Notes under the pieces: model-generated | The model's input: the letters and a program-made list of their open reading frames with translations, nothing else | Told to the model about the DNA's origin: nothing | Database searches by the model: none | NCBI RefSeq assembly: GCF_016592435.1 | Contig: NZ_AP014545.1 | Coordinates: forward strand, 1 to 64,000 | Reading direction: 5' to 3' | DNA from: Amphritea japonica ATCC BAA-1530 | GTDB taxonomy: Bacteria > Pseudomonadota > Gammaproteobacteria > Pseudomonadales > Balneatricaceae | Length of the DNA stretch: 64,000 nucleotides | Made by a program: the position numbers and the translations under genes | Shown here: positions 4,127 to 48,353 of the stretch, one piece after another | Numbering within the stretch: the stretch's first letter is position 1 | How the letters are laid out: each line of letters begins with the position of its first letter

Positions 4127-6553
<2,427 letters not shown>

Positions 6554-6559
6554 TGTTTG

Positions 6560-6564
6560 TGTCG
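6560..6564. repeat. Target-site duplication, left copy (TGTCG)
   Basis: TGTCG directly precedes the left terminus at 6565 and is repeated directly after the right terminus at 24213-24217. A 5-bp duplication is the hallmark of Tn7-family insertion. One caution: the element's own left end also starts TGTCG. Confidence 0.8.
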
Positions 6565-6631
6565 TGTCGAATCTCATTTAGAGTGAAACGGCGTCTCAGA
6601 ATAGTGAAATGCCGTCTCATTTAGAATGAAA
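6565..6631 (+). repeat. Left transposon end with three transposase-binding-like repeats
   Basis: Three direct copies of a motif close to TCTCATTTAGAATGAAA lie at 6571-6588, 6593-6609 and 6614-6631, spaced about 21 bp. Tn7-family left ends carry several spaced TnsB sites. The same motif recurs at the right end in both orientations. Confidence 0.75.
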
Positions 6632-6640
6632 TGGGAAATA

Positions 6641-6668
6641 AAAAAGCAGCCAGTGGCTGCTTTTTTTT
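6641..6668 (+). terminator. Rho-independent terminator inside the left end
   Basis: GCAGCC and GGCTGC pair around a 3-nt loop and are followed by eight T. It closely resembles the terminator outside the right end (24252-24273), so gyrB transcription can still end properly despite the insertion. It may also stop gyrB transcripts from entering the element. Confidence 0.85.
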
Positions 6669-6686
6669 GTGTGAAAAGTTTTGAAA

Positions 6687-8314: not shown

Positions 8315-8323
8315 GTTCATCAC

Positions 8324-8959
8324 TTCCCTTTTCTGGCCCGTATTTTTAGGCGCAATGCATTTTGAGTTTACAAGGTATTGTTATTAAAAGCATGATGATT
8401 GTAATGGCGAAGAAAGCTTACAGAGCTTTGTTAAGACTGTGGTGGGTCAATGGAGTCAGATTCGTTGGTTTCAAGTAGGAATTGCTGTTTTGCTAACTAC
8501 ACAAGTTCTAAATCAGCACTAATGCTTTCTTGTGTGAAATGACTTTCCACTTTTGTGAAAAAATAAATCATTTTAAATCAAGTGGTTAGGTATGTGAAAA
8601 ATACAAGTCGCACGTTTGTCGTCTTTTCTCACTATCTAAACTCTTCCTAATAAGGTCAAAACTAGGCGATACGCTAGTACGACTGAAGCCTCGCTAGAAA
8701 TTTCAATTCTTCCTATCTCCTATCTGTATTATGCCGATGACATTAGATTAGCGGCTTTCCTTCATTACAAAATATAACTGTATATTTCTTAATCAAAAAA
8801 GATCATAGAGTAACCTGAATGACAGATGGAAATATTTTTGTTTTTCTAATATTGCAATATTAACATATTGATTTTAATAAAGTTTTTTGATTTTATTTTT
8901 GATTTTTGAAGATTTTGGATATAAGTTTACTGAAGTTAGAAAATTATTCAGGTAGGCAC
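8324..8959. other. Long AT-rich intergenic region inside transposon
   Basis: About 640 bp between the divergent HipA-like operon and the XRE regulator. I see no convincing coding frame, tRNA or repeat. Divergent promoters for both sides are expected here. The stretch 8760-8930 is especially AT-rich. Confidence 0.5.
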
Positions 8960-9334
8960 ATGACCCCATTTAGCTCTTATCTCGAATCATTGCGCAGAAG
9001 CCGCAGAATTAAGCAGAAGGACTTCGCAAATGAAGTTGGCGTTAGCTCCTGCTATATAAGTGCTATTGAGCTTGGCCGCAAGAACCCCCCTTCTCATGAC
9101 ATCATCGAGTCCATGATTAAAGCTTTGCAACTAAGTTCTAAAGAAGCCTCTTTGTTGTGGGACTATGCAGAGCAATCTATTCGAGTACTACGCATACCTG
9201 AAGACCTGCCATTAGAGGAATACGCTGTCGTTAATGATCTTAAGCGCTCTTTTGGTTCACTATCTAAAGAGCAAATTACAATTATTCGAGCGACGCTATC
9301 TATACGTAGCTTTCAGCAAGAGCAAATTCAATAG
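8960..9334 (+). CDS. XRE-family helix-turn-helix regulator
   Basis: About 124-aa Cro/CI-type regulator. The HTH lies near the N-terminus (LRRSRRIKQKDFANEVGVS, then SAIELGRKNPPS), followed by a helical tail. An upstream in-frame start at 8906 adds 18 residues, but the ATG at 8960 has an AGGTAGG ribosome site and begins right before the HTH. It is placed 223 bp upstream of tnsA, reading toward it. XRE regulators controlling tns operons are known in some Tn7-like elements, so it plausibly represses the transposase operon, perhaps through the palindrome at 9482-9497. Confidence 0.85.
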   Translation: MTPFSSYLESLRRSRRIKQKDFANEVGVSSCYISAIELGRKNPPSHDIIESMIKALQLSSKEASLLWDYAEQSIRVLRIPEDLPLEEYAVVNDLKRSFGSLSKEQITIIRATLSIRSFQQEQIQ

Positions 9335-9481
9335 GATTCGGGAGGATAAACATATGTAAAAAAACGGACGAAGCTAATGCTTGGCCCGCTTTTGTAAGGT
9401 ATTAGATACCTCGACTGGTAATCAAAGTATCTATTCCTTCCGGCAGTTCGTCAAGCTCCAGTACTCATACAACATTTTTCA

Positions 9482-9497
9482 TTACCGATATCGGTAA
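9482..9497. promoter_or_regulatory. 16-bp perfect palindrome, candidate operator
   Basis: TTACCGATATCGGTAA is a perfect palindrome 60 bp upstream of tnsA and 150 bp downstream of the XRE gene. Its size and position suit a dimeric regulator controlling tnsABC-tniQ. No binding data; inferred from symmetry and position. Confidence 0.5.
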
Positions 9498-9557
9498 GGA
9501 TTTAGTATGCCAAAAATTCAGAATGTCGTGCCATTTGGCCAGCGATAAGGAGCCTCT

Positions 9558-10286
9558 ATGCCTCAAAAAACGAGACTTAAAAAGGCGCATCAACGATCTA
9601 GAGAAGCCGTTACTCGCTCAAGAATGACAGTAAGAGGGCGTTTCCCATCAGCGAAGATGGGAAGAATGGTTGATTGGGAGTCGCAACTTGAAAGGCGAGC
9701 TTGCTATCGATTTGAGTTCTCTCCTGCTGTCTTATCTTTCAAAGAGCAACCCCAGCCTATTCGATTTCGAATTGGTGACCAATTGGCGAAGTATACGCCA
9801 GATTTTGAGTTGGAATTGGTCAATGGGGAGACCTGGTTTGTTGAGATAAAACCTCTGGATCATCTACGGAAGCCAGAACTAGCAGAGCGTCTTTCATTGG
9901 CTGCAGGTTGGTTCAAGCGCAATGGATATAAATTCATTGTGATAACGGATGAAGAACTGATTCATCCTGACTTGGAATCAAATCTAGCCTTTCTAAGACA
10001 CTTTCAAACTCATGAGATTAATGAGTCCACGGTTAGTCATGTCTGTCATTGGTTTGATCATATAGACGCCCCCACCCTCGGTGGGTTGCACGAGTACTTT
10101 GGCGACAAGGCAACTGCTTATGCTCTTTTATCTCAGAACCTGATTAGCACCGACCTTTCTGATCCCTTCAATCTCAATTCGGAATTGTTTCTTCTTGAGG
10201 AGAATAGTTATGCAACGCTTTTATTTTCATACAGGACAGCACCTGACTTTAGACTCTGTACCGTACATGATGCAGAGAATTCTTGA
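9558..10286 (+). CDS. tnsA: Transposon endonuclease TnsA
   Basis: TnsA makes the 5'-strand nicks at the transposon ends, so that together with TnsB the element is cut out rather than copied. This 242-aa protein has the restriction-endonuclease-like core: E41/E45 in DWESQLERR, D82 in YTPDFELEL and E96-x-K98 in WFVEIKPL. The C-terminal half should contact TnsC. AAGGAG stands before the ATG. tnsB overlaps its 3' end by 77 bp. All catalytic positions look intact. Confidence 0.93.
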   Translation: MPQKTRLKKAHQRSREAVTRSRMTVRGRFPSAKMGRMVDWESQLERRACYRFEFSPAVLSFKEQPQPIRFRIGDQLAKYTPDFELELVNGETWFVEIKPLDHLRKPELAERLSLAAGWFKRNGYKFIVITDEELIHPDLESNLAFLRHFQTHEINESTVSHVCHWFDHIDAPTLGGLHEYFGDKATAYALLSQNLISTDLSDPFNLNSELFLLEENSYATLLFSYRTAPDFRLCTVHDAENS

Positions 10287-12162
10287 AAACAAAGATGTGA
10301 TTTTACAAAGAAAGTCAGATCTTGGATTAATTACTCGGTCCAGAAATGAGCTTATAGAAGCCTTTGGCGCTGGTGCGCTTAAATTTATTATCAAAGATGA
10401 ATTGGGTCTTGAATCTAAAGCCAACAAACCTGACAAACTTAAACCCCTGGATTCATTTACTGAAGAGCAGCAACGAGAGGCTTTACGGAAGCAGTCTTAT
10501 ATTAATCTTGCCGTTAAAGCTCTTGGAGAGGAGCCCTGCCATCAGAAGTTAAAGAATTACATCGACCTATTTGCGGATCGATTGCAAGACTCCAACCCCC
10601 CAAGCTCGATCACACTATATCGTTGGTGGGTTACCTGGATTAAATCAGGGAAAGATATTATTTCACTGGTTACTCGCTCGGAAGGACGAGCTTCTGTGTA
10701 TTTAAAAGAATACCGTGAAGTTATTTATGAAGTGATTGATGAGGTGTTAATGACACCTGAGTATGGTTCAAGGCAGGATGCCTTTGATCTATTTAAAGTG
10801 AAGCTGAATGAACTGAATTCGATTCGCTTAGATCCATTAGATATGCCCTCTAGAGCTACATTCTATCGTTTATTGAAAAGTTTGATAGATCCCCAAGAGT
10901 TGACTGCAGCACGGCATGGAAAGCGAGCAGCTGAAATGGAGTTTCGGGTTAGCGGGAAAGGTGTTACATCAACTCGAATATTGGAACGTGTAGAGATTGA
11001 TCATACACCGATAGATCTTATCGTTGTGGATGAACGTATTGGAGAAGCGGTTGGTCGTCCTACGTTAACCATGATTCTAGATCATTACTCAAGAATGCCC
11101 CTAGGGTTTTATTTAGGATTTGAACCCCCTTCTTCTGTTGCTGTTATGAGAGCTATCAGACACGCCATCATGCCCAAAAGTTATGTTAACGATGATTATC
11201 CAGACTTTGAAAATGGTTGGCCTGCCTATGGGGTTTTTTGGGTGCTGGTCTGTGATAACGGTTCTGAATTCCACGATCATCAGCTCCAACGAATGGCAAA
11301 TGAGCTGAATATTGAGCTGTTCTACTGTCCTAAGCAGCACCCCTATTACAAAGGAGCTGTTGAACGTTTTCTGGGCACTTTAAATAGAGCGGTGTGTCAC
11401 TCTGCTTCAGGTTCCACCCGGTCTAATATTCAGCAAAGGGGGAATTATAATTCAGCCCAAGAAGCCTCAATTACGCTGGAAAAACTCAGACGTCTCATTC
11501 ACGACTGGATCATCAATATCTACAGCCGTGAGTATCATGAAGGCTTAGGAGATAGTCCGGTGAATGTCTGGACGAAAGGCCTTCAGCATGTAGAGCCGAC
11601 TTTGCCTCTTAGTCGTGAACGCTTGGATCTTACCTTGACCAAGGAGTTTGAAAGAACGATCAATCATGAGGGGGTTAGTCTTTTCAGACTTAAATATAAC
11701 TCCCATGAGCTTGGCCTTCTGCGGCGTCAATTAACAGAGAAAGCGTTAGTAAAGGTCAGAATTGATCCTGAGAACTTAGGCCAGGTGTGGGCCTATGACG
11801 AGCGAGAAGGCTCGTTCTTCTCAGTCCCCTGCATCGACCCGGAATATGCGGAAGGTCTTAGTCAGCGCCAACACGAATATATTCTTAAGCATAGAACGAA
11901 CACCCGTAAGGCTTTAGATACTGATGAATTGCTGGAGAGAAAGGTTAGGTTTAAGCGGGATGTTCGAGAGGCGTCTAAAGCAAAAGGACTTCGCAAGCGG
12001 ACTAAAGCGGCACAGCTCTCACAACTGCCTATTGTGGATGTCGATCAGCTCTCAGTCCCTAAAAGAGAAGAACAATTACCTCTTATTGATATTGATGAAA
12101 TGGATGAGTTTGATATGGATGAATTGGACGAGCTTGATATGGATTGGAGGGCTGAAAAATGA
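10210..12162 (+). CDS. tnsB: DDE transposase TnsB
   Basis: Retroviral-integrase-superfamily transposase that joins the 3' ends to target DNA. The DDE triad is visible as D264 (VEIDHTPID), D349 (LVCDNGSEF) and E385 (GAVERFLG), with 35 residues between the last two. Helical DNA-binding domains precede it and a beta-barrel-like and tail region follows, ending in an acidic Asp/Glu/Met repeat. The longer reading frame opens with TTG at 10195, but GAGGAG at 10197-10202 sits exactly before the ATG at 10210, which I take as the start (650 aa). It overlaps tnsA by 77 bp and tnsC by 4 bp. Confidence 0.95.
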   Translation: MQRFYFHTGQHLTLDSVPYMMQRILENKDVILQRKSDLGLITRSRNELIEAFGAGALKFIIKDELGLESKANKPDKLKPLDSFTEEQQREALRKQSYINLAVKALGEEPCHQKLKNYIDLFADRLQDSNPPSSITLYRWWVTWIKSGKDIISLVTRSEGRASVYLKEYREVIYEVIDEVLMTPEYGSRQDAFDLFKVKLNELNSIRLDPLDMPSRATFYRLLKSLIDPQELTAARHGKRAAEMEFRVSGKGVTSTRILERVEIDHTPIDLIVVDERIGEAVGRPTLTMILDHYSRMPLGFYLGFEPPSSVAVMRAIRHAIMPKSYVNDDYPDFENGWPAYGVFWVLVCDNGSEFHDHQLQRMANELNIELFYCPKQHPYYKGAVERFLGTLNRAVCHSASGSTRSNIQQRGNYNSAQEASITLEKLRRLIHDWIINIYSREYHEGLGDSPVNVWTKGLQHVEPTLPLSRERLDLTLTKEFERTINHEGVSLFRLKYNSHELGLLRRQLTEKALVKVRIDPENLGQVWAYDEREGSFFSVPCIDPEYAEGLSQRQHEYILKHRTNTRKALDTDELLERKVRFKRDVREASKAKGLRKRTKAAQLSQLPIVDVDQLSVPKREEQLPLIDIDEMDEFDMDELDELDMDWRAEK

Positions 12163-13103
12163 ATAAAGAGCAATTAGCGGTGCTTTCAAAATTTAATCAT
12201 CGCGTCATCAAACATCCTCAGTTTGAATCAGCATTTAGCAAGATCGAAGAGGCTTATCAATTGAATGATGAGATCGGTTTTCAGCTGAACCTCATTTGCA
12301 TCGGAATGTCAGGAACAGGCAAGTCGACCCTGAAACGAAGGCTCGTAAAAAAATACCCAGAGTCATATGCGAAGGACCGAAAAATCGTACCAGTACTGGT
12401 GATTGATACTCCCTCCCTTCCAACAGTTAAAAATATGGCTGAAGGCATGCTATTTCAGTTAGGAGATCCTGCGTTTTTCAAGGGATCCGCGGTTGATAAA
12501 ACCGGTAGGATTCTGAATTACATCAAGAGCTGCCAGGTCAGGCTAATTATTTTTGATGAGCTCCAGCATTTTATTGATCAGGGAAGTCGCGCTGCGCCAC
12601 GGCAAGTATCAGATTGGTTAAAAACGTTAATTGATCAGTCCGGCTCATCAGCTGTTCTCATGGGGTTAGAGCAAAGTGAGTACATACTTAGGATAAATGA
12701 GCAGTTGCGCCGCAGGTTCAGTCGAAGAGTGGACCTTAAACCCTTCTCAATTGCATGCAGTAGTAGCTTTCGGGACTTCACCAAAGTGATCAAAGGGCTC
12801 TATCGTACTGCCGATATGCCCTTGTCGGGGAAGCTTAGCCAGGACCTTTTCAAGCGTTGGCACTTTGCTACGAATGGCATCATGGCGTATATGGTTAACC
12901 TGATTATTTCAGCGTATCAGGTCGCACAACGAGAAGGCTATGCTTCTATTCATCAAGAGTGTTTAGAGCAAGCCTTTATCGAATCAATCTGGTCTGAGGG
13001 AGAAGGAAGACTTAACCCGTTCAGTAAAAGCTTCAATTTCAATCGGCTCATAAAGCCAGGTATGCCCTTCCATAAGATTGAAACGAAGGAGCTGGCTATA
13101 TGA
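12159..13103 (+). CDS. tnsC: AAA+ transposition regulator TnsC
   Basis: ATPase that links the target selector TniQ to the transposase and gives target immunity. Walker A GMSGTGKST lies at residues 49-57 and Walker B LIIFDELQHF near 129-138; a sensor-like FSRRVDLKPFS and arginine-rich RRRFSRR follow. Length 314 aa is shorter than Tn7 TnsC (555 aa) and closer to the TniB-size proteins of many Tn7-like elements. Start and stop overlap the neighbours by ATGA, indicating tight coupling with tnsB and tniQ. Confidence 0.93.
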   Translation: MNKEQLAVLSKFNHRVIKHPQFESAFSKIEEAYQLNDEIGFQLNLICIGMSGTGKSTLKRRLVKKYPESYAKDRKIVPVLVIDTPSLPTVKNMAEGMLFQLGDPAFFKGSAVDKTGRILNYIKSCQVRLIIFDELQHFIDQGSRAAPRQVSDWLKTLIDQSGSSAVLMGLEQSEYILRINEQLRRRFSRRVDLKPFSIACSSSFRDFTKVIKGLYRTADMPLSGKLSQDLFKRWHFATNGIMAYMVNLIISAYQVAQREGYASIHQECLEQAFIESIWSEGEGRLNPFSKSFNFNRLIKPGMPFHKIETKELAI

Positions 13104-14977
13104 CGGGACTGATTCAACCAATTTGCTATCCACAGCCTTATGATGATGAATCGCCGGTTGGCTATTTGATACGGGTCTGTCAGGCCAATAAATTTAATAA
13201 CATTCGATGGCTTTACCCTGAGGAAGGTAAGTTATTCTCGTTGCAGCCAACAGAAATTTTAGAGCAGCTAGTAAGCTCTCCCTGGTCAGGATTTCAGAAC
13301 GTAAAAGATGGTATCTCACCCTATTGCTCTTTAAGCCCAGTCGATCTCAATATTACAGTGCTAAGGTACTGTCCTCTGTGCTTAAAGGAAGAGCCCTACT
13401 TTCGGGTTCAATGGCATCTGAAATGCACTACGGTATGTGTAAAGCATCAGTGTTGGCTGGTAGATCGATGTTTTGAGTGTAAGGAGCCATTGAAATATGG
13501 GCGCTTGGCATCGGTCGAAAACTGTCATTGTCGTTATTCATTGTTCGACACACCGATCCAAGAAATACCCAATAATGTGATTAGGTTTCAACAGTTCATA
13601 GATGGTGTAGACACCTATTTTGAAGGAGGCAATTACTGGCTTAGTGAGAGTTTAAATCCATCTGATTTTAATTTAAGAAGACGGGTTCAGCTGGTGCATG
13701 GGTTCTCTCTGTGGCAACCAGTTGAAGACAACTCACTTGCCAGGACTGGGACTTTCTCTGGTTTTAGTGATATTGAAACGGCTAAGGCGTATGTGCTTTC
13801 AGCCGCAGATACGTTTTTTACAGATACAGATGGTTTTACCCCCTTTCTTTATCACCTACATCAGCAGGTTTATGAAAATCAGGAGGATGGAGACAAGCTA
13901 TTTAAACGATTCTACAAATACTTCTTTCATCAGATTGGAGTTGCCATTGATCCTCTTTATCAGGCAGTAGAGCAGTACGTTAATCATAACTGGCAATACT
14001 ATCTCTCCCAAAAAAACTCTCTCTTTACTGAGTCAATGATAGATAGACACATGTGGCTTCCATTGCAAACTGCAAGCAACAGATTTGATATCACTAAGAG
14101 TGAGCTTAAGCGAGCCGTTGCTAAAGGGGCTGTGAGATCTAAAGAAAATTACTATTTTGATTCTGAGCGAACGCTTACATTGGTATACCTGCCTGATGTC
14201 TTGAAATACCTCGATATTAACGAGAACCTTGTTAATGCGGTGACTGCCGCCGGTATATTAGGTGTCACCAAAAAGCAGTTTTATCAGTTATTGGATAGTA
14301 GTTATATCGATGGAGAGGCTCCCTCCAAAAAGAGCGGCTCGTCTTGGCGTGTTAACAGGAGTGATCTCAAGGATTTGTTAGAGAGGTTTACAAAAGGTCA
14401 TCCTGTTCTGGATGATCAGTATATCCCTCTGCCGGATGCTATACGAAAAATTGGAAATAGAATTGAAAGCCCATTTATTCGTTTACTGCAGGCTATTGAA
14501 GGTGGTGATATCTCTACAAGGGTAAATCCTCAACTCGTTGGTTTGAGAAGCTTATGTTTATCAGAAGTGGAGTTAGCCGATTGGTATTCAGCAAAAACGG
14601 TCGAAGATAGGTTCTATAGTGTTCAAGAATTGGCCAAAGAGATGCAGGTGTTGCCAGGCTTGATAACCAGTTTGTTGGGTATTGGGGCATTGTCTTCTTA
14701 CTATGTTCCAGATTTGTCGGGAAAGAGGATTACAATACGCTCAGTACAGCAGTTTCAGGAGAAATACGTGATCCTTTCCAAGCTTGCAAAGTGTAGTGGT
14801 GTCTCCACGCATCGAATGAAGTCGATAGTCGAGTCACTTGGTATTCAGTCGATTGATGAAGGGGTATCGGATAATGCCAAGTTTTTAAGCCGTATTTACT
14901 ACAGACACGAAATGCTGGAAAAGAAGGAAATAGCGCCTTTGGTTTCTTCCATGAAGGACTGGGAATACATGGGGTAG
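13100..14977 (+). CDS. tniQ: TniQ/TnsD target-selection protein
   Basis: Target selector that should bind the attachment site and recruit TnsC. The N-terminal TniQ domain has a zinc-finger set C91, C94, C109, C113, H116, C124, C127, C142, C144. The long C-terminal region contains at least two helix-turn-helix-like segments (around AAGILGVTKKQFYQLLDSS and LAKCSGVSTHRMKSIVESL). At 625 aa it is of the large TnsD type that recognises a fixed DNA site rather than the short TniQ of CRISPR-guided elements. Insertion just behind gyrB suggests the gyrB 3' end as its target. The last 60 residues have a decayed homologue at 22285-22456. Confidence 0.92.
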   Translation: MTGLIQPICYPQPYDDESPVGYLIRVCQANKFNNIRWLYPEEGKLFSLQPTEILEQLVSSPWSGFQNVKDGISPYCSLSPVDLNITVLRYCPLCLKEEPYFRVQWHLKCTTVCVKHQCWLVDRCFECKEPLKYGRLASVENCHCRYSLFDTPIQEIPNNVIRFQQFIDGVDTYFEGGNYWLSESLNPSDFNLRRRVQLVHGFSLWQPVEDNSLARTGTFSGFSDIETAKAYVLSAADTFFTDTDGFTPFLYHLHQQVYENQEDGDKLFKRFYKYFFHQIGVAIDPLYQAVEQYVNHNWQYYLSQKNSLFTESMIDRHMWLPLQTASNRFDITKSELKRAVAKGAVRSKENYYFDSERTLTLVYLPDVLKYLDINENLVNAVTAAGILGVTKKQFYQLLDSSYIDGEAPSKKSGSSWRVNRSDLKDLLERFTKGHPVLDDQYIPLPDAIRKIGNRIESPFIRLLQAIEGGDISTRVNPQLVGLRSLCLSEVELADWYSAKTVEDRFYSVQELAKEMQVLPGLITSLLGIGALSSYYVPDLSGKRITIRSVQQFQEKYVILSKLAKCSGVSTHRMKSIVESLGIQSIDEGVSDNAKFLSRIYYRHEMLEKKEIAPLVSSMKDWEYMG

Positions 14978-15378
14978 AGAAAGGGATGCCCTATTCTTCC
15001 AACTTATGGTCCAGACTGAACCTTTTGGATGAAAGCGCGTATTTTCCTGAACGCCCATGAACTGTTTGTTAAATGAAGAATTTTGGTTATATACTGCTTA
15101 TATCAGCTAGATGACTCTACGAGTTGATCAATCCAGCTTCCAACTGGTTTGATAGCAAGAAGCCGCCCTCTCGGGGCGGCTTTTTTGTTCCTAAAGTTAG
15201 TGGCTTGTGATGGGCTAGTCGGGTTTAGAGGCGTATCAGCGTGAAAGATATTTTAGCCTTGTTGGTTCTGGAGGGACTGGGGTAAATCATCATTGATGGC
15301 CGCTTAGCTCCTACTAAAAGAGGAAAGATTACCCTCCTCTCTCTCCGTTAAACAACAAAAATCCGCCGGATATGACTG
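14978..15378. other. Intergenic region downstream of tniQ
   Basis: Some 400 bp between tniQ and the convergent minus-strand cassette. It contains a strong terminator at 15162-15186. The 180 bp between the tniQ stop and the terminator could encode a small RNA, but I see nothing specific. No CRISPR-like repeat is present. Confidence 0.5.
15162..15186 (+). terminator. Rho-independent terminator of tns operon
   Basis: GCCGCCC pairs with GGGCGGC around a 5-nt loop, followed by six T. It closes the tnsABC-tniQ transcript about 180 bp after tniQ. Confidence 0.88.
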
Positions 15379-16299
15379 TTAGTTAGTGGCTTCTTCAAGC
15401 TGAGGACTATTTTCTATCTGTTCGTTTATAGGTGAGTTAGATTGCTTAATCGAGCCACTTCGTAGGATTCTGTCCCTTCTAGCCTTGATCAAAGCTTCAT
15501 ATAGCTGAGGTCTTGCTTTGATTGTGTGAATCATACTGATAAGTAATCTACTAATAAGAATGGCAACAAAAAAGTATAGGGTTCCTATATACCAGAAGAT
15601 CTTTTGGTCTTTTATTGTCTGATTAAAGTATGCAATGCTTTCAGGGTCCTCAAACGAGCTACAAATTATTTTAACGCTTTCTATCGAAAGTCCTGTTGTA
15701 TTGACTACCCCGACTTGCCCTAGTGACTCACAAGCGGATTTATCAAACGCCCACTCCTTGCTTTCCTCTAAAATAATGAGATAGCTGATACTAGAGAAGC
15801 CGTTCTTATTCAAAGAAACCCACTGAGACTCGTTTTTAAGCTTTACGATTGCACCATTTGAGGAAGCTATAAAAAGTAATGGCTGAATGCTTAAAGCTAT
15901 TCCTAAAAAAACAACTCCAGGGAACACTGTTATCCAAGGGTTAATTTTCTTAACTTTTCTCAGTTGTGAGTCGAACCCTCCTCTCATCTTGGAGAAAAAT
16001 TTAATATTCAATTCGTTTTTTTGCACTCGTTGCTGAATCCAATGAATCTCTTTGAGTGATTTGGTCTGCATATGAAATAAGGCATTGAATCGCTCTATAT
16101 CTGTTCGCTCTTGCCAGAACTTTTTGAGCTTACGGTCGCTGAACTCTGATCCACCTATAAGTAGGGCGTACAGCCTATTCATGAGGGCGTATGAACTTCC
16201 AGATTTAAATTGAAAATATCCTGCTATAGCAAGCAGAAAGAGGCCCGTCACTAACCAGGCGGGCAAACTTAAAAATGCATTTAGAGGTGAGTCATCCAT
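15379..16299 (-). CDS. Unknown membrane protein (cargo)
   Basis: A 306-aa protein with three likely transmembrane segments: near the N-terminus (LPAWLVTGLFLLAIAGYF), mid-protein (WITVFPGVVFLGIALSI) and near residue 240-265 (WYIGTLYFFVAILISRLL). A soluble stretch of about 100 residues lies between the second and third segments. Basic C-terminal tail. I do not recognise the family. It is the last of three minus-strand cargo genes; 114 bp separate it from the 258-aa gene upstream. A membrane partner of a defence module is possible but only inferred from context. Confidence 0.6.
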   Translation of the reverse strand: MDDSPLNAFLSLPAWLVTGLFLLAIAGYFQFKSGSSYALMNRLYALLIGGSEFSDRKLKKFWQERTDIERFNALFHMQTKSLKEIHWIQQRVQKNELNIKFFSKMRGGFDSQLRKVKKINPWITVFPGVVFLGIALSIQPLLFIASSNGAIVKLKNESQWVSLNKNGFSSISYLIILEESKEWAFDKSACESLGQVGVVNTTGLSIESVKIICSSFEDPESIAYFNQTIKDQKIFWYIGTLYFFVAILISRLLISMIHTIKARPQLYEALIKARRDRILRSGSIKQSNSPINEQIENSPQLEEATN

Positions 16300-16413
16300 G
16301 ATATTTCTTCCGTGAAAAGTAATCGAATCAGGTTCAATAGCTTTAAATAATATAGATTTTTTACTTTTCTATTACATGAGCGGCCACTTATATGGCACAA
16401 GTCCAGAATGTTC

Positions 16414-17190
16414 TTACTTGCTTATAGTGCGACTATTTAGATCCTTGAGAATAGCACTCTCAAGCCAGTTCGGCACAATGAAGTCTTGAGATTTAAGTAT
16501 TGTTTTGGGCACGTCTTCCCAGAATCCTGTAATAGCGCTTGAAAATTCCTCTACATGAGCGTCCGTTATCGAGAGATGTGTATGATCCAAAAAGTCCAGT
16601 TCGAAAAAATCATCCCCAAACGTACCGTAAGGATTACGTAGGTATTCGGGGTATTTTTTCTTTAGTTCTTCCAGTGATTTACCTTTTCCATGTTTATAGA
16701 TATTAATCACCAAGCGGCAAGCATCAAGCTTTCGGAAATAACTTTTACTTTGAATATTCCAGCCTAAGGACTTAAATAGTTCAGCTATTTTCCCAAAATC
16801 TACGCTCCAGATTTTAGCCTCAGTATGGTTTCCATGATGCCAGTGATTCACCTCTGTAATCATCCAGTCACGGAATTGCTTATCCCACTCATGGTACATT
16901 CCTGCCACAACGCTTAAGCGCGTAGTGTTATGCATACCAGAAAGAAGTTGATAGAACTCGATCTCAATATCATGTGCTTGTTCATAGAAACTACCAGGGT
17001 CGTGTCGGTCAGGATCAAACCTATGATTGTTATCTTCTAGCCAGTGCTCAGCCGCTTTTCTTGCTTCAGTTTCTATATCTTTAAATTGAGCTAACAATCG
17101 CTTGTTAGCCTGGGTTACATAAAACTCATGGACGGCAATGAAGGATTTTCGGCTAGGCTCCCACATTTGAAATAGAACAAACTGCTTCAT
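16414..17190 (-). CDS. Unknown cargo protein, possibly HEPN-like
   Basis: A 258-aa soluble, mostly helical protein. Near residue 155-170 it has RLVINIYKHGKGKSLEELK, which looks like the N-x-x-KH-G element seen in several HEPN-like abortive-infection proteins; this is a motif-level resemblance only. Trp/His-rich in the middle (VNHWHHGNH). It starts 4 bp after the stop of the interrupted gene upstream (17194-18353) and is surely cotranscribed with it. Function unknown; RNase activity would be the prediction if the HEPN reading is right. Confidence 0.6.
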   Translation of the reverse strand: MKQFVLFQMWEPSRKSFIAVHEFYVTQANKRLLAQFKDIETEARKAAEHWLEDNNHRFDPDRHDPGSFYEQAHDIEIEFYQLLSGMHNTTRLSVVAGMYHEWDKQFRDWMITEVNHWHHGNHTEAKIWSVDFGKIAELFKSLGWNIQSKSYFRKLDACRLVINIYKHGKGKSLEELKKKYPEYLRNPYGTFGDDFFELDFLDHTHLSITDAHVEEFSSAITGFWEDVPKTILKSQDFIVPNWLESAILKDLNSRTISK

Positions 17191-17193
17191 AAA

Positions 17194-18353
17194 CTAATTC
17201 TCAGGCCAATTTTGGGGTAGGTCTAATAGGCAACCCAAACAGAACCCCTCCTCGAAGACTAATTCATCCTCTGAATTGGCTTTACAATGTGGAAATGCAT
17301 CTAGATATGATGGAACTTGGTAGTTAGCCCAAGGATTCATGAATAATCCTTGTTTTAGTTTTGCAATACACCAAGGAGAGTTTCCCTTAAAGAGCCATGC
17401 TCCGCTGACTCTGGTGTATTGAGGACCTCCGAAAGAGAGCCAAGCACCATTCGGCTTTCTTCCCCTCCCTACAACATCACCGGAATTCCTATCGATGGTT
17501 ATTGTTTCATCTCCAAAAAGCGCACTAATAGCCGTTAACTTATCAACATGCTTTGAATCCACACCAATAGCGATAATTAATGGCTTACTCAATTCACCAT
17601 ATTTATTTCCTTTTGTTTTTATGGCCTTCTTAATTTGCCGTCCAGTATCTAAAGGTCGTACTTCTGGCATGTTCATACCAATCAATCTGTCACCGGTACC
17701 TCTACTTTCTTCATTCTTGGGAATAGCTAGGAATTCCACTTCCCAACCATCATGCTGCCATTCTAATTTGGGTAATGTAGTTACACCATTAAGCTCGAAT
17801 TCGCGAGAGACCTCATCCGGGTTTAACGTCTCTAGCCATTCGGAAACTGAAGCGTTCAGATTTCTACTGCTTGGTCTGGAGTTAGGGTGGCCGTCAGCAT
17901 CAATTGCCAAAAAGAAATTAGGTGATTCTAGTGTATCTAATGTATCTAAAACGGCATTTTTGTTAGCTTCTGCACCAGGCACTAAATCCTGCTCAGTCAC
18001 GACAATTGCTTCCAAATAAAATTCGTCCCCTTCTGGTGTGGTGACAAGGAAGTCAGGCCTTTTTGGTGAGCCGTTATTGAGTACAGGGTGAGGAATTAGA
18101 GAGCATCCTAGGGCTTTCATGGATGCAAAAAGAATCATCTCGAATGCAGCAGACTTAAAGTTTATATTCCTATTGGACTGTATCCTTGAGCGAATATCTT
18201 TTTTTCTTCGTCCGGGAATTCCTCATAGATTCTTTCAAGGAAGTCTCTTACTTTTTTGGCTTCTTCTGTTCCTGAGCGGTCTAAGTAATGAAACTCAAGC
18301 TCAGAACGGCTTTTGGGGCCTAGGAATTCACGCTCTTTTTCTTCGAACAGCAC
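17194..18353 (-). pseudogene. Interrupted cargo gene with -1 frame change at A AAA AAG
   Basis: Two open frames make one protein of about 385 aa. The first (start GTG 18353 with AAGGAA upstream) covers 63 codons and stops at 18162; the second is open through 17194. Near 18202-18210 the reading frame passes over the heptamer A AAA AAG in the correct phase, and a -1 slip there continues as DIRSRIQSNRNINFKSAAFEM into the second frame, giving an uninterrupted, sensible protein. This is either programmed frameshifting, a lost A in a run of eight, or a sequencing error. After the junction RPDFLVTTPEGDEFYLEA resembles a PD-(D/E)xK nuclease core with the Lys replaced; tentative. It leads the minus-strand cassette. 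Confidence 0.65.
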
Positions 18354-18626
18354 GGATTAGTTCCTTTTCCTGACGTTCAGCTGATGAGGCGTACATAATT
18401 GAAATAGCCTATAGATGCTGTAAATAGTAATTCTAACCTACTCATGATGTAAGTTAAGAATGTACATACATCGCCTGCAGTTCGATAGAGACGTCCTGTA
18501 ATAGCTCTACGCGGGTAAATTCAATTCTAATTCAAGTCTAGTTTAGATACGTAATTCTTAGTTTGACGTAAAGTCTTACTTTGCGTTATAGTGTTTATTA
18601 TGTTTTTATTTTTGTATGGAGTCTTT

Positions 18627-19562
18627 ATGGAATTTCGAGCACCTTCAGTTGCTACAGAACAAACCGCACGTGCTGCAAAGTACCTCACGAAAAATCTTGA
18701 AGATCCAAATGCAGGAAGAGCAGTTTTAGATACTCTTATAAACGAGTTAGGAAACGTTGTTGAGAACTTTCCAGATTGGCACCCAATATTGACTATTCCT
18801 GCGAAAGACTCAACTAAAGAGGCTTGTTCGTTAAATGGACTGGATGCTTATAAAACTATTGATCACACAGTGATGTTTGTTCGTGGGTTTGTGACATGCC
18901 CATATAGTGAAGATAAAGCAGACCGTTTGGTGGAAGCTGTCGAGCAGTTAGAAGGGCTTCGTGCTTACCGGCTACATCAACCTTTATATGCTGACAGTGC
19001 TTACCCAGTGGTGGTAGAAGCATATATTGTTCAGTTAGAAGCGGATGGTACTATTCGTAGCCGTGATGCTTTAATTTGGTTTTCACAGCACTTACTTAAT
19101 GATCCTTCGAATTCAGAAGTTGCCGAAACTTGGTGGAATATTCGTTCTCTGATTTTGGGTCATCCCCATGGATCTCGCTCTTCTTTATTTGTGAATCAGC
19201 ACTCAGGTGCTCATATGCGAAAAATTCTAGAAGCTTTCAATAACAGCGGTATGTTTGGCCCAATAAAAGAATCTTCACTCGAAATGTTATCAAAAAAGAA
19301 GAGAGACACAATTTGTGAGGCTCTCATTCGAGCTGCTGTGAGCAGTTGGGATAAGCATAGCGAAAAGTTTGATTTTGAATTACGTGGTGAAACTTGCAAG
19401 GTTAATATTCGTGATACGTGGGGTGATGGTCAGGAATTGTCAGTTCAAGTTGTAATTGGTGATCATGATTTATATGTCTCGGGTTTTTTCTATCTACGAG
19501 AAGATCGACCTACATATACAGAACCTTTGGGAAAGCGCGCTTTAGCTGAAAAGTTCTTGTAA
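18627..19562 (+). CDS. Unknown cargo protein upstream of Septu-like pair
   Basis: A soluble protein of 311 aa from the ATG at 18627, which has GGAG upstream; an ATG at 18591 in the same frame would add a hydrophobic 12-residue leader and looks less likely. No family recognised. No catalytic motif stands out; it has conserved-looking HPHGSRSSLF and RDTWGDGQEL segments. Directly after the stop, another frame reads KAEQQAVKRLRKAGLF, a segment repeated in inverted orientation at 22958-23007, so the true C-terminus may once have been longer. It reads toward the ATPase/HNH pair 111 bp downstream and may be a regulator or third component. Confidence 0.6.
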   Translation: MEFRAPSVATEQTARAAKYLTKNLEDPNAGRAVLDTLINELGNVVENFPDWHPILTIPAKDSTKEACSLNGLDAYKTIDHTVMFVRGFVTCPYSEDKADRLVEAVEQLEGLRAYRLHQPLYADSAYPVVVEAYIVQLEADGTIRSRDALIWFSQHLLNDPSNSEVAETWWNIRSLILGHPHGSRSSLFVNQHSGAHMRKILEAFNNSGMFGPIKESSLEMLSKKKRDTICEALIRAAVSSWDKHSEKFDFELRGETCKVNIRDTWGDGQELSVQVVIGDHDLYVSGFFYLREDRPTYTEPLGKRALAEKFL

Positions 19563-19564
19563 AA

Positions 19565-19614
19565 GCAGAACAACAAGCAGTAAAGCGTCTACGAAAAGCT
19601 GGTCTATTCACCGC
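19565..19614 (+). repeat. 50-bp imperfect inverted repeat, copy 1
   Basis: About four-fifths identical to the reverse complement of 22958-23007. The two copies bracket the ATPase/HNH pair, the tniQ relic and a small membrane gene. In one frame both copies encode QQ-x-VKR-x-RKAG-x-F, so they may be remnants of the same gene 3' end. Confidence 0.6.
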
Positions 19615-19673
19615 TTGCTTTAAAAGCTGCGCAGTATGATTGTGTTAAGACTAATCTTAGGAACAATTGATCT

Positions 19674-21368
19674 TTGAAAATTATATATACACCAAACCTT
19701 CCTTGGGGAGCTGAACCCCCAGCTATTTCTGGAGAGAAAGATTACTTGTCTCTCAGTGGAAATAACTGGGATGACTTTGGTTACAGAACAACACTTAATG
19801 CTAGGATCTTCTTTGATGGAGAAGCCATTGATCTTGATTTTAGTATCAAGATGCTGATAGATGATGTCGAATATACACGAGAGCACCTAAATAACCTCTG
19901 CAAAGAAGGATGGAATGGTAGATTTCCTATTCCTGATCAGAAGTATGTATCTGTTCCAACAGACATTGATTTCTATAAGACAATTCATTCTCGCCTTTCT
20001 TCAGAAGAAATGTCTAAGTTCTTAGCTCTTCTAGGTGACGCCGGCTATTTGGTGGAGGTTAAAAAAGATAAGAGTTCAACTAGACTGACTCAGTTAGATA
20101 TTTTTAATACTTCTCTACTTCGTGGGAGTGGAAGTAACAAATGCTTTCAGGATGGTTGGCGGATATTAGAGCATCAGGATAGCTCGATTCGAGACTTCAA
20201 GTTCCGCCTTAATACACAAAGTGGTGGTGTTTGCGATATTCCTTTTAGCTTTGAGTCAGACCTTCTACCCTATGATATCAATGTACTGATTGGTCCCAAT
20301 GGTATCGGTAAATCATACTGTTTAAGGTCACTGGTTGAATACTGGTTACAAATTGATAAAGGGGCTCCAGATCAGCTTAGCGAGCTTGGGTATGATCCTT
20401 TTGACCATAGACCTAATATCAGTCGTCTTATCCTTGTTTCATATAGTCCGTTTGAAGAGTTCAGCTTAGGGCTTAAGAAAAAAGATAAGGTGCTTGATAC
20501 AAGTGCTTATCGATATTTTGGCTTTCGTAAGAAGTTAAAAAATGGGCGTATTGGCATTAGTCGAGGCTTACCAAAACTAAACGCAAGCGAATCGCTGCTT
20601 GATGCAATTTATGAAGACCATAAGTATCAAGAAGAAAGTTGGTGGATAAACAAGTTTGACACCTGTCTCAAAGTTCTCAAAAAGGCTGTAGGATTTGATG
20701 AAATCTACTTAAAGTTAGATAGCAATCAAAACTTATCAGCACTAAAAAAGTATATAAAAGATATTAAAGGATCAAGCTATCTTATCCTCGATAGCTCTCT
20801 CCCTGCAATCGTCTTCAAGCAAGAGTTGATTGACTGTTGTGATATGCAATCGGGAGCTTATTTCATTAAAAATAAGAAGTTATGCGACCTTAGTTCTGGT
20901 CAGCTGCTGTTCTCTTATATTGTAATTAACGTTATCGGATCAATCAGAGAAAATTCACTAGTTGTTATCGATGAGCCGGAGCTATTCCTCCATCCAACTC
21001 TTGAGATAGAGTTTTTATCTCTATTAAAATCTGTTTTAAAGCCATTCAAGTCTAAAGCAATACTAGCTACTCATTCATTGTCTGTTGTTCGCGAAGTACC
21101 TTCAAACTGTGTACATATTTTCAGAGAAGGCAAAGATGGCTTTGATGTGATTCCTCCTCCTTTTGAGACTTTTGGAGGGAGTGTCCAACGAATTTCTGCA
21201 TATGTGTTCGGTGATCGATCCGTCTCAAAACCGTTTGATGAATGGCTTGAAAAGCAGATGGCGGGCGGTAAGCAGGCTGATACTTTAATTGATCAGCTTG
21301 GAGAAGAGATTAATGAAGAGCTTATGATGCGGATTCATCGTATATCAAGGAGGTTAAATGGTAGCTAA
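19674..21368 (+). CDS. Septu-like AAA/ABC-type ATPase (PtuA-like)
   Basis: SMC/OLD-like ATPase of 564 aa. Walker A IGPNGIGKS lies at residues 206-214, the ABC signature LSSGQ at 406-410, Walker B VVIDEPELFLHP near 430-441 and the switch histidine in ATHS near 467. No TOPRIM domain follows, unlike OLD nucleases. The next gene is an HNH protein overlapping by 11 bp; this pairing is that of Septu (PtuA/PtuB) anti-phage systems and of some retron effectors, where the ATPase regulates the nuclease. No reverse transcriptase is nearby, so a stand-alone Septu-like system is the best reading. It starts with TTG at 19674; AGGAA lies somewhat far upstream. Confidence 0.8.
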   Translation: MKIIYTPNLPWGAEPPAISGEKDYLSLSGNNWDDFGYRTTLNARIFFDGEAIDLDFSIKMLIDDVEYTREHLNNLCKEGWNGRFPIPDQKYVSVPTDIDFYKTIHSRLSSEEMSKFLALLGDAGYLVEVKKDKSSTRLTQLDIFNTSLLRGSGSNKCFQDGWRILEHQDSSIRDFKFRLNTQSGGVCDIPFSFESDLLPYDINVLIGPNGIGKSYCLRSLVEYWLQIDKGAPDQLSELGYDPFDHRPNISRLILVSYSPFEEFSLGLKKKDKVLDTSAYRYFGFRKKLKNGRIGISRGLPKLNASESLLDAIYEDHKYQEESWWINKFDTCLKVLKKAVGFDEIYLKLDSNQNLSALKKYIKDIKGSSYLILDSSLPAIVFKQELIDCCDMQSGAYFIKNKKLCDLSSGQLLFSYIVINVIGSIRENSLVVIDEPELFLHPTLEIEFLSLLKSVLKPFKSKAILATHSLSVVREVPSNCVHIFREGKDGFDVIPPPFETFGGSVQRISAYVFGDRSVSKPFDEWLEKQMAGGKQADTLIDQLGEEINEELMMRIHRISRRLNGS

Positions 21369-22284
21369 ATTGTTACCTCCAGCTCATGACTCGGCAGAAG
21401 TTGTTCGAGACTCAATCGCGAATAGGAGACAACATAGAGATTTCTTCAGAGCTCTTCAAGAGGATTGGTTGGCCCTTATTGATGATTATAATCGCCTCTC
21501 AGGTGACCCAACGGCTATAGCACCCATAGATTTGTCTCAATATATCAGTGCTGAGAGGCTACAAAATGAAGCCGCTAGTGAGCCAGGAAGAGGAGAAAGC
21601 GATGATCCAGCAGAGAGGTTATATCAAAGGCGTAAAAAATCTCTGATAAATCTGTATTCGGCAGCAGCTGGAACAAATTTGCATACGACTTTAGATGCTA
21701 TGAGAAGGAGGCATGGGCTTAGATTCTGTCCTTCATGTGGAGAACCCGGAAAGCCAGGAACTCTAGACCACTATTTACCGAAAACTGAGTATCCCGAGTT
21801 TTCAATTGTATTAGAAAATTTGACACCAATGTGTGAGGCTTGCCAAGAAAAAAAGGGTACATCTGCCGTCGATGAGGAGGGAAATAAGCTCTTTATTCAT
21901 CCCTATTATGATCCAATTGAAGATGCTTCTCTTAGTCTTGTGATATCTGAACCATATGAAAGCCCTACTTCGTTTAATGTAGAGGTTCATCAAGATGTCC
22001 CTGAGCAAATAAGATCTCTATTTGAAAGGCATTTGTCTGAGATTAATTTTAGAGAAAGGTTCGAAGAGTTTTGTATAGATGAGTACTCGGACCTGCTTTC
22101 ACTTTTTACAGCAGAAAGAGCTGGAGATAATCCAGATAGTGCAAGGCGAATTCTACCAAGGTTTTTAATTAAAAGTGCAGTGCAATCACACAACCGCTGG
22201 GAAGCTATATTCTACCGTGGTGTTCTATCTAACCCAGATTTGCTGGATTACTTAGATAACGCTGATTTGCCAGGCTTGTTTTGA
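21358..22284 (+). CDS. HNH nuclease (PtuB-like)
   Basis: A 308-aa protein with a zinc-stabilised HNH fold: C124-x2-C127, the catalytic DH at 137-138, N154 and C159-x2-C162. It overlaps the ATPase gene by 11 bp, so the two are translationally coupled. In Septu systems the HNH partner degrades nucleic acid once the ATPase partner is released or triggered by phage infection. The gene's stop codon abuts the decayed tniQ fragment at 22285, so this module was probably joined to foreign transposon DNA exactly at its 3' end. Confidence 0.8.
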   Translation: MVAKLLPPAHDSAEVVRDSIANRRQHRDFFRALQEDWLALIDDYNRLSGDPTAIAPIDLSQYISAERLQNEAASEPGRGESDDPAERLYQRRKKSLINLYSAAAGTNLHTTLDAMRRRHGLRFCPSCGEPGKPGTLDHYLPKTEYPEFSIVLENLTPMCEACQEKKGTSAVDEEGNKLFIHPYYDPIEDASLSLVISEPYESPTSFNVEVHQDVPEQIRSLFERHLSEINFRERFEEFCIDEYSDLLSLFTAERAGDNPDSARRILPRFLIKSAVQSHNRWEAIFYRGVLSNPDLLDYLDNADLPGLF

Positions 22285-22456
22285 ATCGAACTGACCCACA
22301 GGCAAGCATTATCCGATCTACTTAATATGAATCGACCATGAACTACCTAAAGAAGAGCGCTACATGAATCGTATTTTCTACAGGTATGACCTAGTTAATG
22401 TGAAGGAGATTTCGGCTTTGATAGGAGCTATGGGAGATTGGGATTATATGGTTTAG
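22285..22456 (+). pseudogene. Relic of a second tniQ (C-terminal 55 codons)
   Basis: Starting right after the HNH stop codon, the frame reads IELTHRQALSDLLNMN, then with a one-base shift IDHELPKEERYMNRIFYR and on to EISALIGAMGDWDYMV and a stop. The intact TniQ ends with VSTHRMKSIVESLGIQSID, FLSRIYYRHEML and EIAPLVSSMKDWEYMG in the same order. The relic is clearly homologous but divergent, so it comes from a related element rather than a recent duplication of 13100-14977. It lacks the rest of the gene and is not functional. Confidence 0.8.
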
Positions 22457-22553
22457 AGGGTGGATGCTCAGTAGAGTTGTGTTGTAATGGTTTGATAAAT
22501 AAGAAAATATTTTAACATTAAAATTTTCAGGTAATTAAAGGAAGATTGCTGTT

Positions 22554-22964
22554 GTGAGAAAAGGAAAGTTCTTCAAGGCTCTAATAGAAGAAATAAAGTC
22601 CCCGTCAGGGGAAACAATGATATCACTTCTTATAACAGTGGCTTCAGTAGCTATCCCTGCTTTGGTTACAGTGTTTACACAAAATAAATCTATAACTGAT
22701 AGTTTTTCTTCTATGACCATCACTCTTGCAACTTTTTGCATAGTGGTCGTTGCATGGAGGCCAAAGGCTTGGTGCTCGATAGCTGAGTATTTAGAAGCAT
22801 TGTTACTTCTGTTAATCAGCTTGTCTTGGTTGATCATTATTGGCTATTTTGATTTGTTTCTTGAGTTATCTTGGTTTGTGTATCTAGCAGCATTACATTC
22901 AACTCTTAATGTTATCTACGTTCATCAAGTAGTTAAGTATGGAACTAGTACAGATAAGGAATGA
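22554..22964 (+). CDS. Small unknown membrane protein (cargo)
   Basis: A 136-aa protein starting GTG, with four predicted transmembrane segments (around residues 25-42, 52-67, 80-98 and 102-120) and short basic or charged ends. No family recognised. It lies between the tniQ relic and a convergent membrane-protein gene near the right transposon end. The 269 bp upstream include the relic and otherwise nothing I can name. Confidence 0.5.
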   Translation: MRKGKFFKALIEEIKSPSGETMISLLITVASVAIPALVTVFTQNKSITDSFSSMTITLATFCIVVVAWRPKAWCSIAEYLEALLLLLISLSWLIIIGYFDLFLELSWFVYLAALHSTLNVIYVHQVVKYGTSTDKE

Positions 22965-23007
22965 ATCGACCAGCTTTTCGTTGACGTTTTACTACTTGTT
23001 GATCTGT
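22958..23007 (-). repeat. 50-bp imperfect inverted repeat, copy 2
   Basis: Reverse-complement partner of 19565-19614. On the minus strand it encodes QQVVKRQRKAGRF followed by a stop a few codons later. It overlaps the last codons of the 136-aa gene. Confidence 0.6.
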
Positions 23008-23054
23008 TGTTTTCAAAGTCGATTCAGGCCTTGAAATCTAAATAGCGATATTAG

Positions 23055-23969
23055 TTATGCGCTATGTATGGCTTTGACCCCTATTTTTAGGCGCCATCGT
23101 TCAATTGAATAGCGAAGTGATGCGAATAATGCTATTCCTATATAGCTCAAAATTACGATAGAAGAGCTTGAAAGTACTTCTTGAGGATAGAAAGACAGTA
23201 ATGCTAGGATGCTGGCTCCAGTGTTTGATATGAGTAAAAAGATCACTCTGGGCATCATATATTTCTTTTTTCTTCTACTTACAGTATTAGCCCACTTTTC
23301 TTCTAATCGGTTCTTATGTTCCATATTCTGTGCTTTGTAAGCGCAGGCAATATGCTTTTTAAATGAAATACATACTATTGGGTAGAATGTGCCAAAAAAG
23401 ATACAAATTGCTGAAACTGTTGATACTGTCTGATGGTAATCAGTATGTGGCGCTAGGAAATAGGAAAGCCCTCCTGCGAAAAAAATAAAGTTAAAGGCAA
23501 AGAAAAGATAAGGTAGCTCTTTGATCAAGCTTCCGTATTTAATCTGATTTTTTCCCTTAGCTAAGGCATAGACGTCATCCAATTTGGGGTGTGATTTGAT
23601 ACGCAAAGTCCGCATACCTGCAACATGTTTATAGAGCATATGGATCAATGAAACCTTGTGAGCTATTACAGATAAGAAGCCCCAACCCATGAAAAAGACT
23701 ACGAATGAGTATACGGTGCCAATCGTTGCTGCTTGTGCGGTTAATTTTTGGTCACCTGAAAAGAAAGCAGCTATAGCAAATAGACCTGTTATGGATAATA
23801 GATAGGTCTTAACGTACCACTGGCATTGAGAATGCTGGTTTGCTATTGAGGTCGTCGACTCTTCAATTTCCTTTTCGATTACATTTTCCATAAGTTGTCT
23901 CGTTGTATGAGGGGTCGTCATAGTGATTATTGTCAGGTTGATGCTGCCTGATAGTGATTGATAAAACAA
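23055..23969 (-). CDS. Unknown multi-pass membrane protein (cargo)
   Basis: A 304-aa protein with about six hydrophobic segments (two near residues 50-95, two near 150-200 and two near 245-285) and a charged N-terminal region rich in Glu. Start uncertain: in-frame ATGs at 23921 and 23891 give shorter forms, and none has a strong ribosome site. No family recognised. It is the gene nearest the right transposon end, which begins about 110 bp upstream. Confidence 0.55.
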   Translation of the reverse strand: MFYQSLSGSINLTIITMTTPHTTRQLMENVIEKEIEESTTSIANQHSQCQWYVKTYLLSITGLFAIAAFFSGDQKLTAQAATIGTVYSFVVFFMGWGFLSVIAHKVSLIHMLYKHVAGMRTLRIKSHPKLDDVYALAKGKNQIKYGSLIKELPYLFFAFNFIFFAGGLSYFLAPHTDYHQTVSTVSAICIFFGTFYPIVCISFKKHIACAYKAQNMEHKNRLEEKWANTVSRRKKKYMMPRVIFLLISNTGASILALLSFYPQEVLSSSSIVILSYIGIALFASLRYSIERWRLKIGVKAIHSA

Positions 23970-24080
23970 TTAAACAGTCTCTCATCGACTTAATAAATAT
24001 AATTAACAAATGATTATGAGGGTAATCCTCCCCTATCCTATGGAGGGTTTGGATGATGAGGCAATTATGGCCTTAAGGTA

Positions 24081-24212
24081 TTTCACCTTAAGTGAGAGTT
24101 TACTCGGATATTTCATTCTATATGAGAAATTGGGGCTAAGGTCGTTTCTCATATAGAATGAAACACCGTATGTACCGGGGCTTTCTCATTTCACGTCAAA
24201 TGAGAAACGACA
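24081..24212 (-). repeat. Right transposon end with four binding-like repeats
   Basis: Copies of the end motif lie at 24081-24098, 24111-24129, 24145-24163 (this one in the opposite orientation) and 24189-24207, followed by the terminal CGACA. The left end has three copies; such asymmetry between ends is usual in the Tn7 family. Confidence 0.75.
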
Positions 24213-24217
24213 TGTCG
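24213..24217. repeat. Target-site duplication, right copy (TGTCG)
   Basis: Matches 6560-6564 and directly follows the right terminus. Confidence 0.8.
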
Positions 24218-24246
24218 AATCTCATTTAGACTTAAATGAGAAATTT
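24213..24246. other. Flanking palindrome that mimics the transposon ends
   Basis: The host-side flank begins with 18 bases identical to the element's left end (TGTCGAATCTCATTTAGA) and continues CTTAAATGAGAAA, which resembles the right end. TCTCATTT and AAATGAGA form a palindrome around AGACTT. It may be the scar of an earlier related element or the native post-gyrB sequence. Confidence 0.65.
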
Positions 24247-24251
24247 AAAAA

Positions 24252-24273
24252 GCAGCCTGAGGGCTGCTTTTTT
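24252..24273 (+). terminator. Rho-independent terminator (ancestral gyrB terminator?)
   Basis: GCAGCC pairs with GGCTGC around TGAG, followed by six T. Before the insertion it would have stood about 40 bp after gyrB. A near copy lies inside the left end at 6641-6668. Confidence 0.85.
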
Positions 24274-43935: not shown

Positions 43936-44017
43936 CCTTGGCTTTAGACCGCTGCTGTGCGGCTAGCTCGTCGCTGGAACGTCACAAAAAACGTGACTAG
44001 CTCGTTGCTTGAAAAAT
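43922..44017 (+). repeat. Palindromic repeat, copy A (REP-like)
   Basis: Starts with the inverted repeat AAGCTAAGGC/GCCTTGGCTT at the end of the LonB-like gene and contains two near-direct copies of TAGCTCGTCGCT/TAGCTCGTTGCT around a small hairpin. The segment ending AGCTCGTTGCTTGAAAAA resembles the reverse complement of copies B and C. Confidence 0.45.
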
Positions 44018-44181
44018 CTAAGAAAGAGCAGCGGGTAAACGTTGAGTTAGCGCTTTGATTTAATTAAAAATGACAGTTACGACGGCCTGTCAAAGTCGGT
44101 GAAGAGTAGGTTATTAGAAAAAATGCAGCCTCTACAGGCACTATAATCTACAATTAGGCGTCAATTCATCAAGGAAGAGTC

Positions 44182-44628: not shown

Positions 44629-44656
44629 TGGGGCTTTATGTTTCAAGGAGAAGTTT

Positions 44657-44890: not shown

Positions 44891-44892
44891 CC

Positions 44893-45531: not shown

Positions 45532-45592
45532 TCTGTTGGCTCGAAACTTTTAAACGGCTACTGAGTTGTCCGTATTGTTATTACGGCGTTAA

Positions 45593-47527: not shown

Positions 47528-47528
47528 C

Positions 47529-48346: not shown

Positions 48347-48353
48347 GAGAATT

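Follow-up and report, generated by a model that had tools for sequence, protein, structure and literature searches.

Why should the sequence just outside a transposon repeat the transposon's own end? The question arises in the first 64,000 nucleotides of Amphritea japonica contig NZ_AP014545.1 (the whole stretch analysed, hereafter the window), where a 17.6-kb Tn7-like transposon spans 6565-24212 just 3' of gyrB (stop at 6553). The initial annotation had pointed to an exact copy of the transposon's left end beyond its right terminus, and this copy is indeed present: the 18 bases at 24213-24230 are those at 6565-6582 (TGTCGAATCTCATTTAGA). At up to three mismatches this 18-base end has two sites only in the window (the mean in 100 shuffles was 0.08, and none had two), and at 0-1 mismatch the end pattern occurs at three places only in the whole 3.83-Mb genome, namely both ends of the element and the stub outside its far end. 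Taken together, our results make it very probable that an earlier Tn7-like element, which also targeted gyrB, left 24213-24273 behind as the worn remainder of its gyrB-side end, together with the terminator built into that end.

A Tn7-like element directly downstream of gyrB

The element is of a known kind, Tn7-like and probably site-specific. TnsA, TnsB, TnsC/TniB and TniQ/TnsD proteins were all detected by profile (Table 1), with the DDE core of the TnsB-like product (PF00665, rve; E 3.1e-5) scoring below its cut-off, and the TniQ/TnsD-like product is presumed to be the selector of the gyrB target. Both ends carry arrays of TnsB-like repeats and the termini read TGT..ACA; the repeats of the left end are of the type TCTCATTTAGAATGAAA, and the right end has sites of this type in reverse orientation. 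'Left' here means the gyrB-side end and 'right' the far end; in the Tn7 convention the end nearest tnsA is R, and the two names would be swapped. We take the gene order around gyrB to be dnaA/dnaN/recF-like, and in all 10 related loci tested, among them those of Methylobacter, Gilliamella and Limnobaculum, gyrB models outscored parE models on the gene before the element. Exact five-base duplications were found in three element copies only (G000, G015 and G063), reading TGTCG in the window, ATTGT in G015 and AAGTA in G063; no matching pair was read in G006, G005, G054 or G038, a point against our reading of the stub.

Several features of the cargo and surroundings were recorded alongside. A HipA-like kinase gene and a 289-aa partner (window 6687-8323) are kept beside the gyrB-side end in G000, G015 and G074, and the Xre-like gene before tnsA holds the same place in other elements. 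Further into the element, 19674-22284 carries an AAA ATPase and HNH-like pair that matches the PADLOC candidate PDC-M01A/M01B and, more weakly, PtuA of Septu. This ATPase/HNH cassette is bracketed by a 50-nt inverted repeat (86% complementary; 19561-19610 and 22962-23011), with which it may form a nested mobile unit. Elsewhere in the window, G+C drops to 0.33-0.39 at ~44000-50000, compared with ~0.5 in the surroundings, marking a possible second island.

Table 1. Features of the gyrB locus and its Tn7-like element, in window coordinates.
Feature	Position	Strand	Basis or remark
gyrB	4127..6553	+	ORF and gene order; attachment site lies on its 3' side
Target-site duplication TGTCG, gyrB-side copy	6560..6564	.	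Identical to 24213-24217
gyrB-side ('left') end	6565..6639	+	Three TnsB-like repeats: 6572-6588, 6594-6610, 6615-6631
Intrinsic terminator within left end	6640..6667	+	GCAGCC stem at +81 from outer end
Xre-like regulator gene	8906..9334	+	PADLOC HTH matches; precedes tnsA
tnsA-like endonuclease gene	9558..10286	+	PF08722, E 1.6e-10, above cut-off
tnsB-like transposase gene	10195..12162	+	PF09299, E 3.7e-10, above cut-off; start uncertain, overlaps tnsA
tnsC/tniB-like AAA ATPase gene	12159..13103	+	PF05621, E 5.1e-28
tniQ/tnsD-like gene (625 aa)	13100..14977	+	PF06527, E 3.7e-12
Far ('right') end	24111..24212	-	TnsB-like sites 24111-24129, 24147-24163 and terminal 24184-24212 (..ACGACA)
Target-site duplication TGTCG, far copy	24213..24217	.	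Also the first five bases of the probable older end
Stub, probable gyrB-side end of an earlier element	24213..24246	+	Outer TGTCGAA and one TnsB-like repeat; palindromic core 24220-24241
Terminator of the probable older end	24247..24273	+	GCAGCC/GGCTGC; stem at +39 from the stub's outer end

A probable single-repeat end with its own terminator

The stub presents a TGTC outer end, a TnsB-like repeat at the spacing seen in the element and a terminator after the last repeat. Its repeat scored 16.1, and none of 500 shuffles did as well. The palindrome at 24220-24241 and the near-identity of the terminators inside the left end and after the stub are as the initial annotation described them, the two terminators folding at -15.5 kcal/mol (z -4.5) and -15.4 kcal/mol (z -3.7), respectively. 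An intact end has more than one repeat and the stub has a single one, and for this reason we regard it as a worn remnant rather than as an intact end. The palindrome of the stub is more perfect than that in the present left end, which counts against a remnant.

The stub aligns with the left end minus its repeats 1-2 (43 bp), and the alignment continues through the terminator. The number of repeats goes together with the position of the GCAGCC stem, which lies at +80 to +82 in ends with three repeats (+75 in G042), at +50 to +59 in those with two and at +39 in the stub with its one, a ladder that is what the loss of repeat units would be expected to leave. Before the present insertion, 24247-24273 would have been the terminator of gyrB.

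End-like sequences after gyrB in the family

The initial annotation held that a palindrome found in all relatives would mean a native site and one found in only some a scar. The family search matched 115 of 116 genomes, from which 82 loci, hand-picked across genera, were examined and 80 scored, two being too short; the sequence of G011 stops within gyrB. Repeats were scored with a matrix trained on ten surveyed ends, the window's own end and the stub not among them. In the first 60 nt after gyrB the best score was at least 12 in 26 of the 80 (10 of these 26 genomes had supplied training repeats), 8-12 in five and below 8 in 49, compared with at least 12 in 0 and at least 8 in two of 1514 control stretches. 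The stop positions of G033 and G064 were corrected for the scoring of repeats, distances and hairpins, and kept uncorrected for the placement of control stretches. The end-like sequence is therefore present in some relatives and absent from others, and most genera in this survey of 80 have clean gyrB sites. Since most of the unoccupied sites outside the window's own genus lack it, it is no native feature of the gyrB flank at large; the motif tracks the transposon and not the host, which disfavours the suggestion that the end derives from a native site.

Where the outer end could be measured, it lay 2-14 nt after the gyrB stop in 25 of 25 sites, a near-constant distance that is consistent with site-specific insertion directed by TniQ/TnsD. 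Within the window's own genus, 10 of 16 sites scored at least 12, two (G008 and G009) 10-12 and four below 8; G012 and G016 are without an end remnant, and G002 and G013 gave weak scores. Given these absences and weak scores, and a genus tree with open inner forks and an open root, one ancestral scar and several cannot be told apart in the genus. As a separate observation, four members of genus g5 (G027, G030, G031 and G032; loci L063, L066, L067 and L132) have hairpins before the terminator, with arms that differ but pair, and G030 has an end-like repeat besides its hairpin.

The empty site was rebuilt from the two flanks in the window, linked by a single TGTCG, a reconstruction that stands in for an element-free strain of the same species and is presumed to read TGTTTG-TGTCGAATCTCATTTAGACTTAAATGAGA-terminator. 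It is closest to G003 (alignment score 47; mean of shuffles 16.2), where gyrB is free of adjoining element genes and a similar single-repeat stub is present, and is also like G009 and G008; in each of these three comparisons, 0 of 500 shuffles reached the score. The likeness of the rebuilt site to unoccupied relatives argues that the stub predates the present insertion. The alignment with the left end, the match to G003 and the patchy presence among relatives all speak for a scar left by a previous element of this kind, one of the two origins that the initial annotation had entertained.

Left ends beside other elements

The arrangement is not confined to the window. A left end lies 0-8 nt outside six of 12 right ends (those of the window, G015, G006, G054, G038 and L137), the 12 being right ends recognised by motif or by eye rather than a random sample, and outside 0 of 240 control stretches; not counted here are the worn right end of G016 and an inner site in G066 that resembles a right end. 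These neighbouring left ends range from a stub to a complete end: G015 has a two-repeat end with its terminator outside the right end, the second end in G054 (Motiliproteus sp. MSK22-1) is complete, with three repeats and a terminator, and in L137 (Neptuniibacter pectenicola) an end with its terminator follows one complete tns gene set, a second set (L146) lying on the same contig. The L137, L146 and L141 stretches exclude gyrB, L146 being assigned to gyrB by a terminator that resembles the post-gyrB one of G066 and L137 by the shared contig. Among the other six right ends, those of G063, G005, G066, the second N. pectenicola element and Marinobacterium ramblicola are clean, and that of G004 is doubtful.

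The view that the element sits beside a copy of its own end is thus borne out in the window and at five other right ends of the 12. Such an insertion would require no recognition of the old end, since the distance of 2-14 nt alone would put a newcomer at its outer edge. This recurrence suggests that Tn7-like elements land repeatedly at one spot by gyrB and leave pieces behind.

Two further loci show other arrangements. In an Ignatzschineria MAG (L150) two three-repeat ends stand in direct order at 5744 and 5861, 117 nt apart and right after gyrB, and here a solo end precedes the present one. The first 3.3 kb of L130 (G074) hold a decayed element, the end repeats of which are gone, while gyrB still has next to it the terminator, the HipA cargo and fragments of xre and tniQ.

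A terminator carried by the gyrB-side end

The left end in G063 has GCAGCC/GGCTGC at +80, whereas the host terminator outside its right end has another sequence (GCCCTGG..CCGGGGC), and from this difference we conclude that the GCAGCC terminator moves as part of the element, a pattern also evident in the N. pectenicola array. With a loose filter, an end-borne GCAGCC terminator was found within 130 bases in 20 of 30 entries, one of the 20 being the window's right end taken together with the stub. The terminator is absent at the fixed place from some type-B ends (G024, the first end of G038, G080 and G104), and also from ends from other orders (L138, L139, L144 and L150). Folded as the 3' RNA of gyrB, the entire left end of the window (6554-6672) gives an extended hairpin ahead of the terminator (-41.3 kcal/mol, z -5.95).

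Alternative origins of the stub

The initial annotation took the stub for a fusion of left and right ends, which would make it the closed scar of an excised element. What stands of its 'right-end-like' half is that AAATGAGAAA is common to the stub and the right end; in the stub, however, AAATGAGAAA runs on as repeat 3 of the left end and its terminator, so that the right end is not needed to account for the second half. Against the right end the match breaks off at GAAA and misses the CGACA terminus, whereas the match to repeat 3 extends into the terminator, and when the two alternatives were scored a left-right fusion covered 31 bases and a left-end deletion product all 68, terminator included. 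Since the versions with two or three repeats that lie outside other right ends are plain left ends, and given the ladder from three repeats to one, we consider a fusion very unlikely. That the present element made the copy itself, by duplication or by unequal recombination between near-identical terminators, is scarcely credible: two similar terminators do flank the site, but, compared with the present left end, the stub has two repeats fewer and several base differences, and the unoccupied site of G003 has its like.

The palindrome could instead be original to the gyrB 3' region and kept by selection, its likeness to the end having arisen by convergence or by borrowing on the part of the transposon. 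Palindromes are indeed found between stop and terminator at some sites without an end-like repeat, the arms in genus g5 differ between species and yet pair (G027 and G032), and several g10 hosts have palindromes like GTAAGTA..TACTTAC. Folding of the intervals from stop to terminator nonetheless gave z < -1.5 at 9 of 44 repeat-less sites (median z -0.48); the hairpin is not general, and a general native hairpin was rejected. The stub moreover, with its TGTCGAA outer end, fits the transposon motif, and this motif occurs also at the far end of the element and in many other elements; and outside the right ends of G015, G054, G038 and L137 there are two or three repeats, as in true ends. We therefore regard a native hairpin as unlikely, and favour the worn end of an earlier element.

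A proposed succession of elements at gyrB

The worn end could have come about as follows. TniQ, acting like TnsD, would mark the 3' end of gyrB, with an insertion point a few nt past the stop, as the measured distances suggest. The three TnsB-like repeats and the terminator in the gyrB-proximal end would then let gyrB keep a terminator. On loss of the earlier element, its end and terminator would have stayed with gyrB and worn down to the single-repeat form now seen, probably through slippage between direct repeats. The duplicated TGTCG, which forms the first five bases of the old end, shows that the present element went in at this very point, presumably afterwards. Should TniQ take its bearings from the end of gyrB, as we infer by analogy with TnsD at glmS (PMC2918618), the next element would come to lie against the outer edge of any older end.

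It is quite possible, if somewhat short of probable, that this amounts to domestication, the gyrB terminator of this lineage being transposon-derived and kept after the death of the element, with the fossil receiving the next one. As pure speculation, a leftover TnsB-like repeat might affect target immunity at the site.

gyrB as an attachment site

Tn7 reportedly inserts into the terminator region of its target gene, as the title of a 1986 paper by Gay and colleagues indicates. TnsD of Tn7 binds the 3' end of glmS at attTn7 (PMC2918618). Akin to Tn7 as described there, the element has TnsA/B/C with a selector of the TniQ family, a five-base duplication and a one-way insertion shortly after the stop of a conserved gene, in the terminator region; unlike Tn7, it targets gyrB, brings along a terminator at a constant position within its gyrB-side end, and has what is left of earlier ends at its site. 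Among type I-F3 CASTs parE is a known target of TnsD (PMC11406308), and with the parE-targeting elements of that source the present one shares a presumably TniQ/TnsD-directed insertion by the gene for a type II topoisomerase subunit, whereas here the gene is gyrB by model score and no CRISPR gene was recognised among the cargo proteins scanned. Separate TnsA, TnsB, TnsC and TniQ proteins are a likeness to Tn6022 and other non-CAST Tn7-like elements as covered in PMC10293859, in which Tn6022 lies in comM and uses TnsF, in contrast to the 625-aa TniQ and the gyrB site here.

A scan of the genome contigs with the TniQ protein gave no matches; a TnsC alignment search of the contigs yielded 32 loci, and ends directly 3' of gyrB were recognised in only some of these. 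The string 'gyr' is absent from the main texts of three surveys or reviews of Tn7-like elements (PMC10293859, PMC8649781 and PMC11406308), and our literature search found no paper on a gyrB attachment site of Tn7-like elements. Three features look new: the use of gyrB as the site, a terminator borne at a constant position in the end, and the end fossils retained next to gyrB.

These findings point to a Tn7-like clade that uses gyrB as its attachment site across several proteobacterial orders. With a terminator at a fixed place in the end, an essential gene would still have a terminator once an element has inserted. Through the fossil ends, the repeated occupation of one chromosomal site becomes readable, which opens the way to tests of the succession of target-immune elements at one site and of the takeover of transposon terminators by the host.
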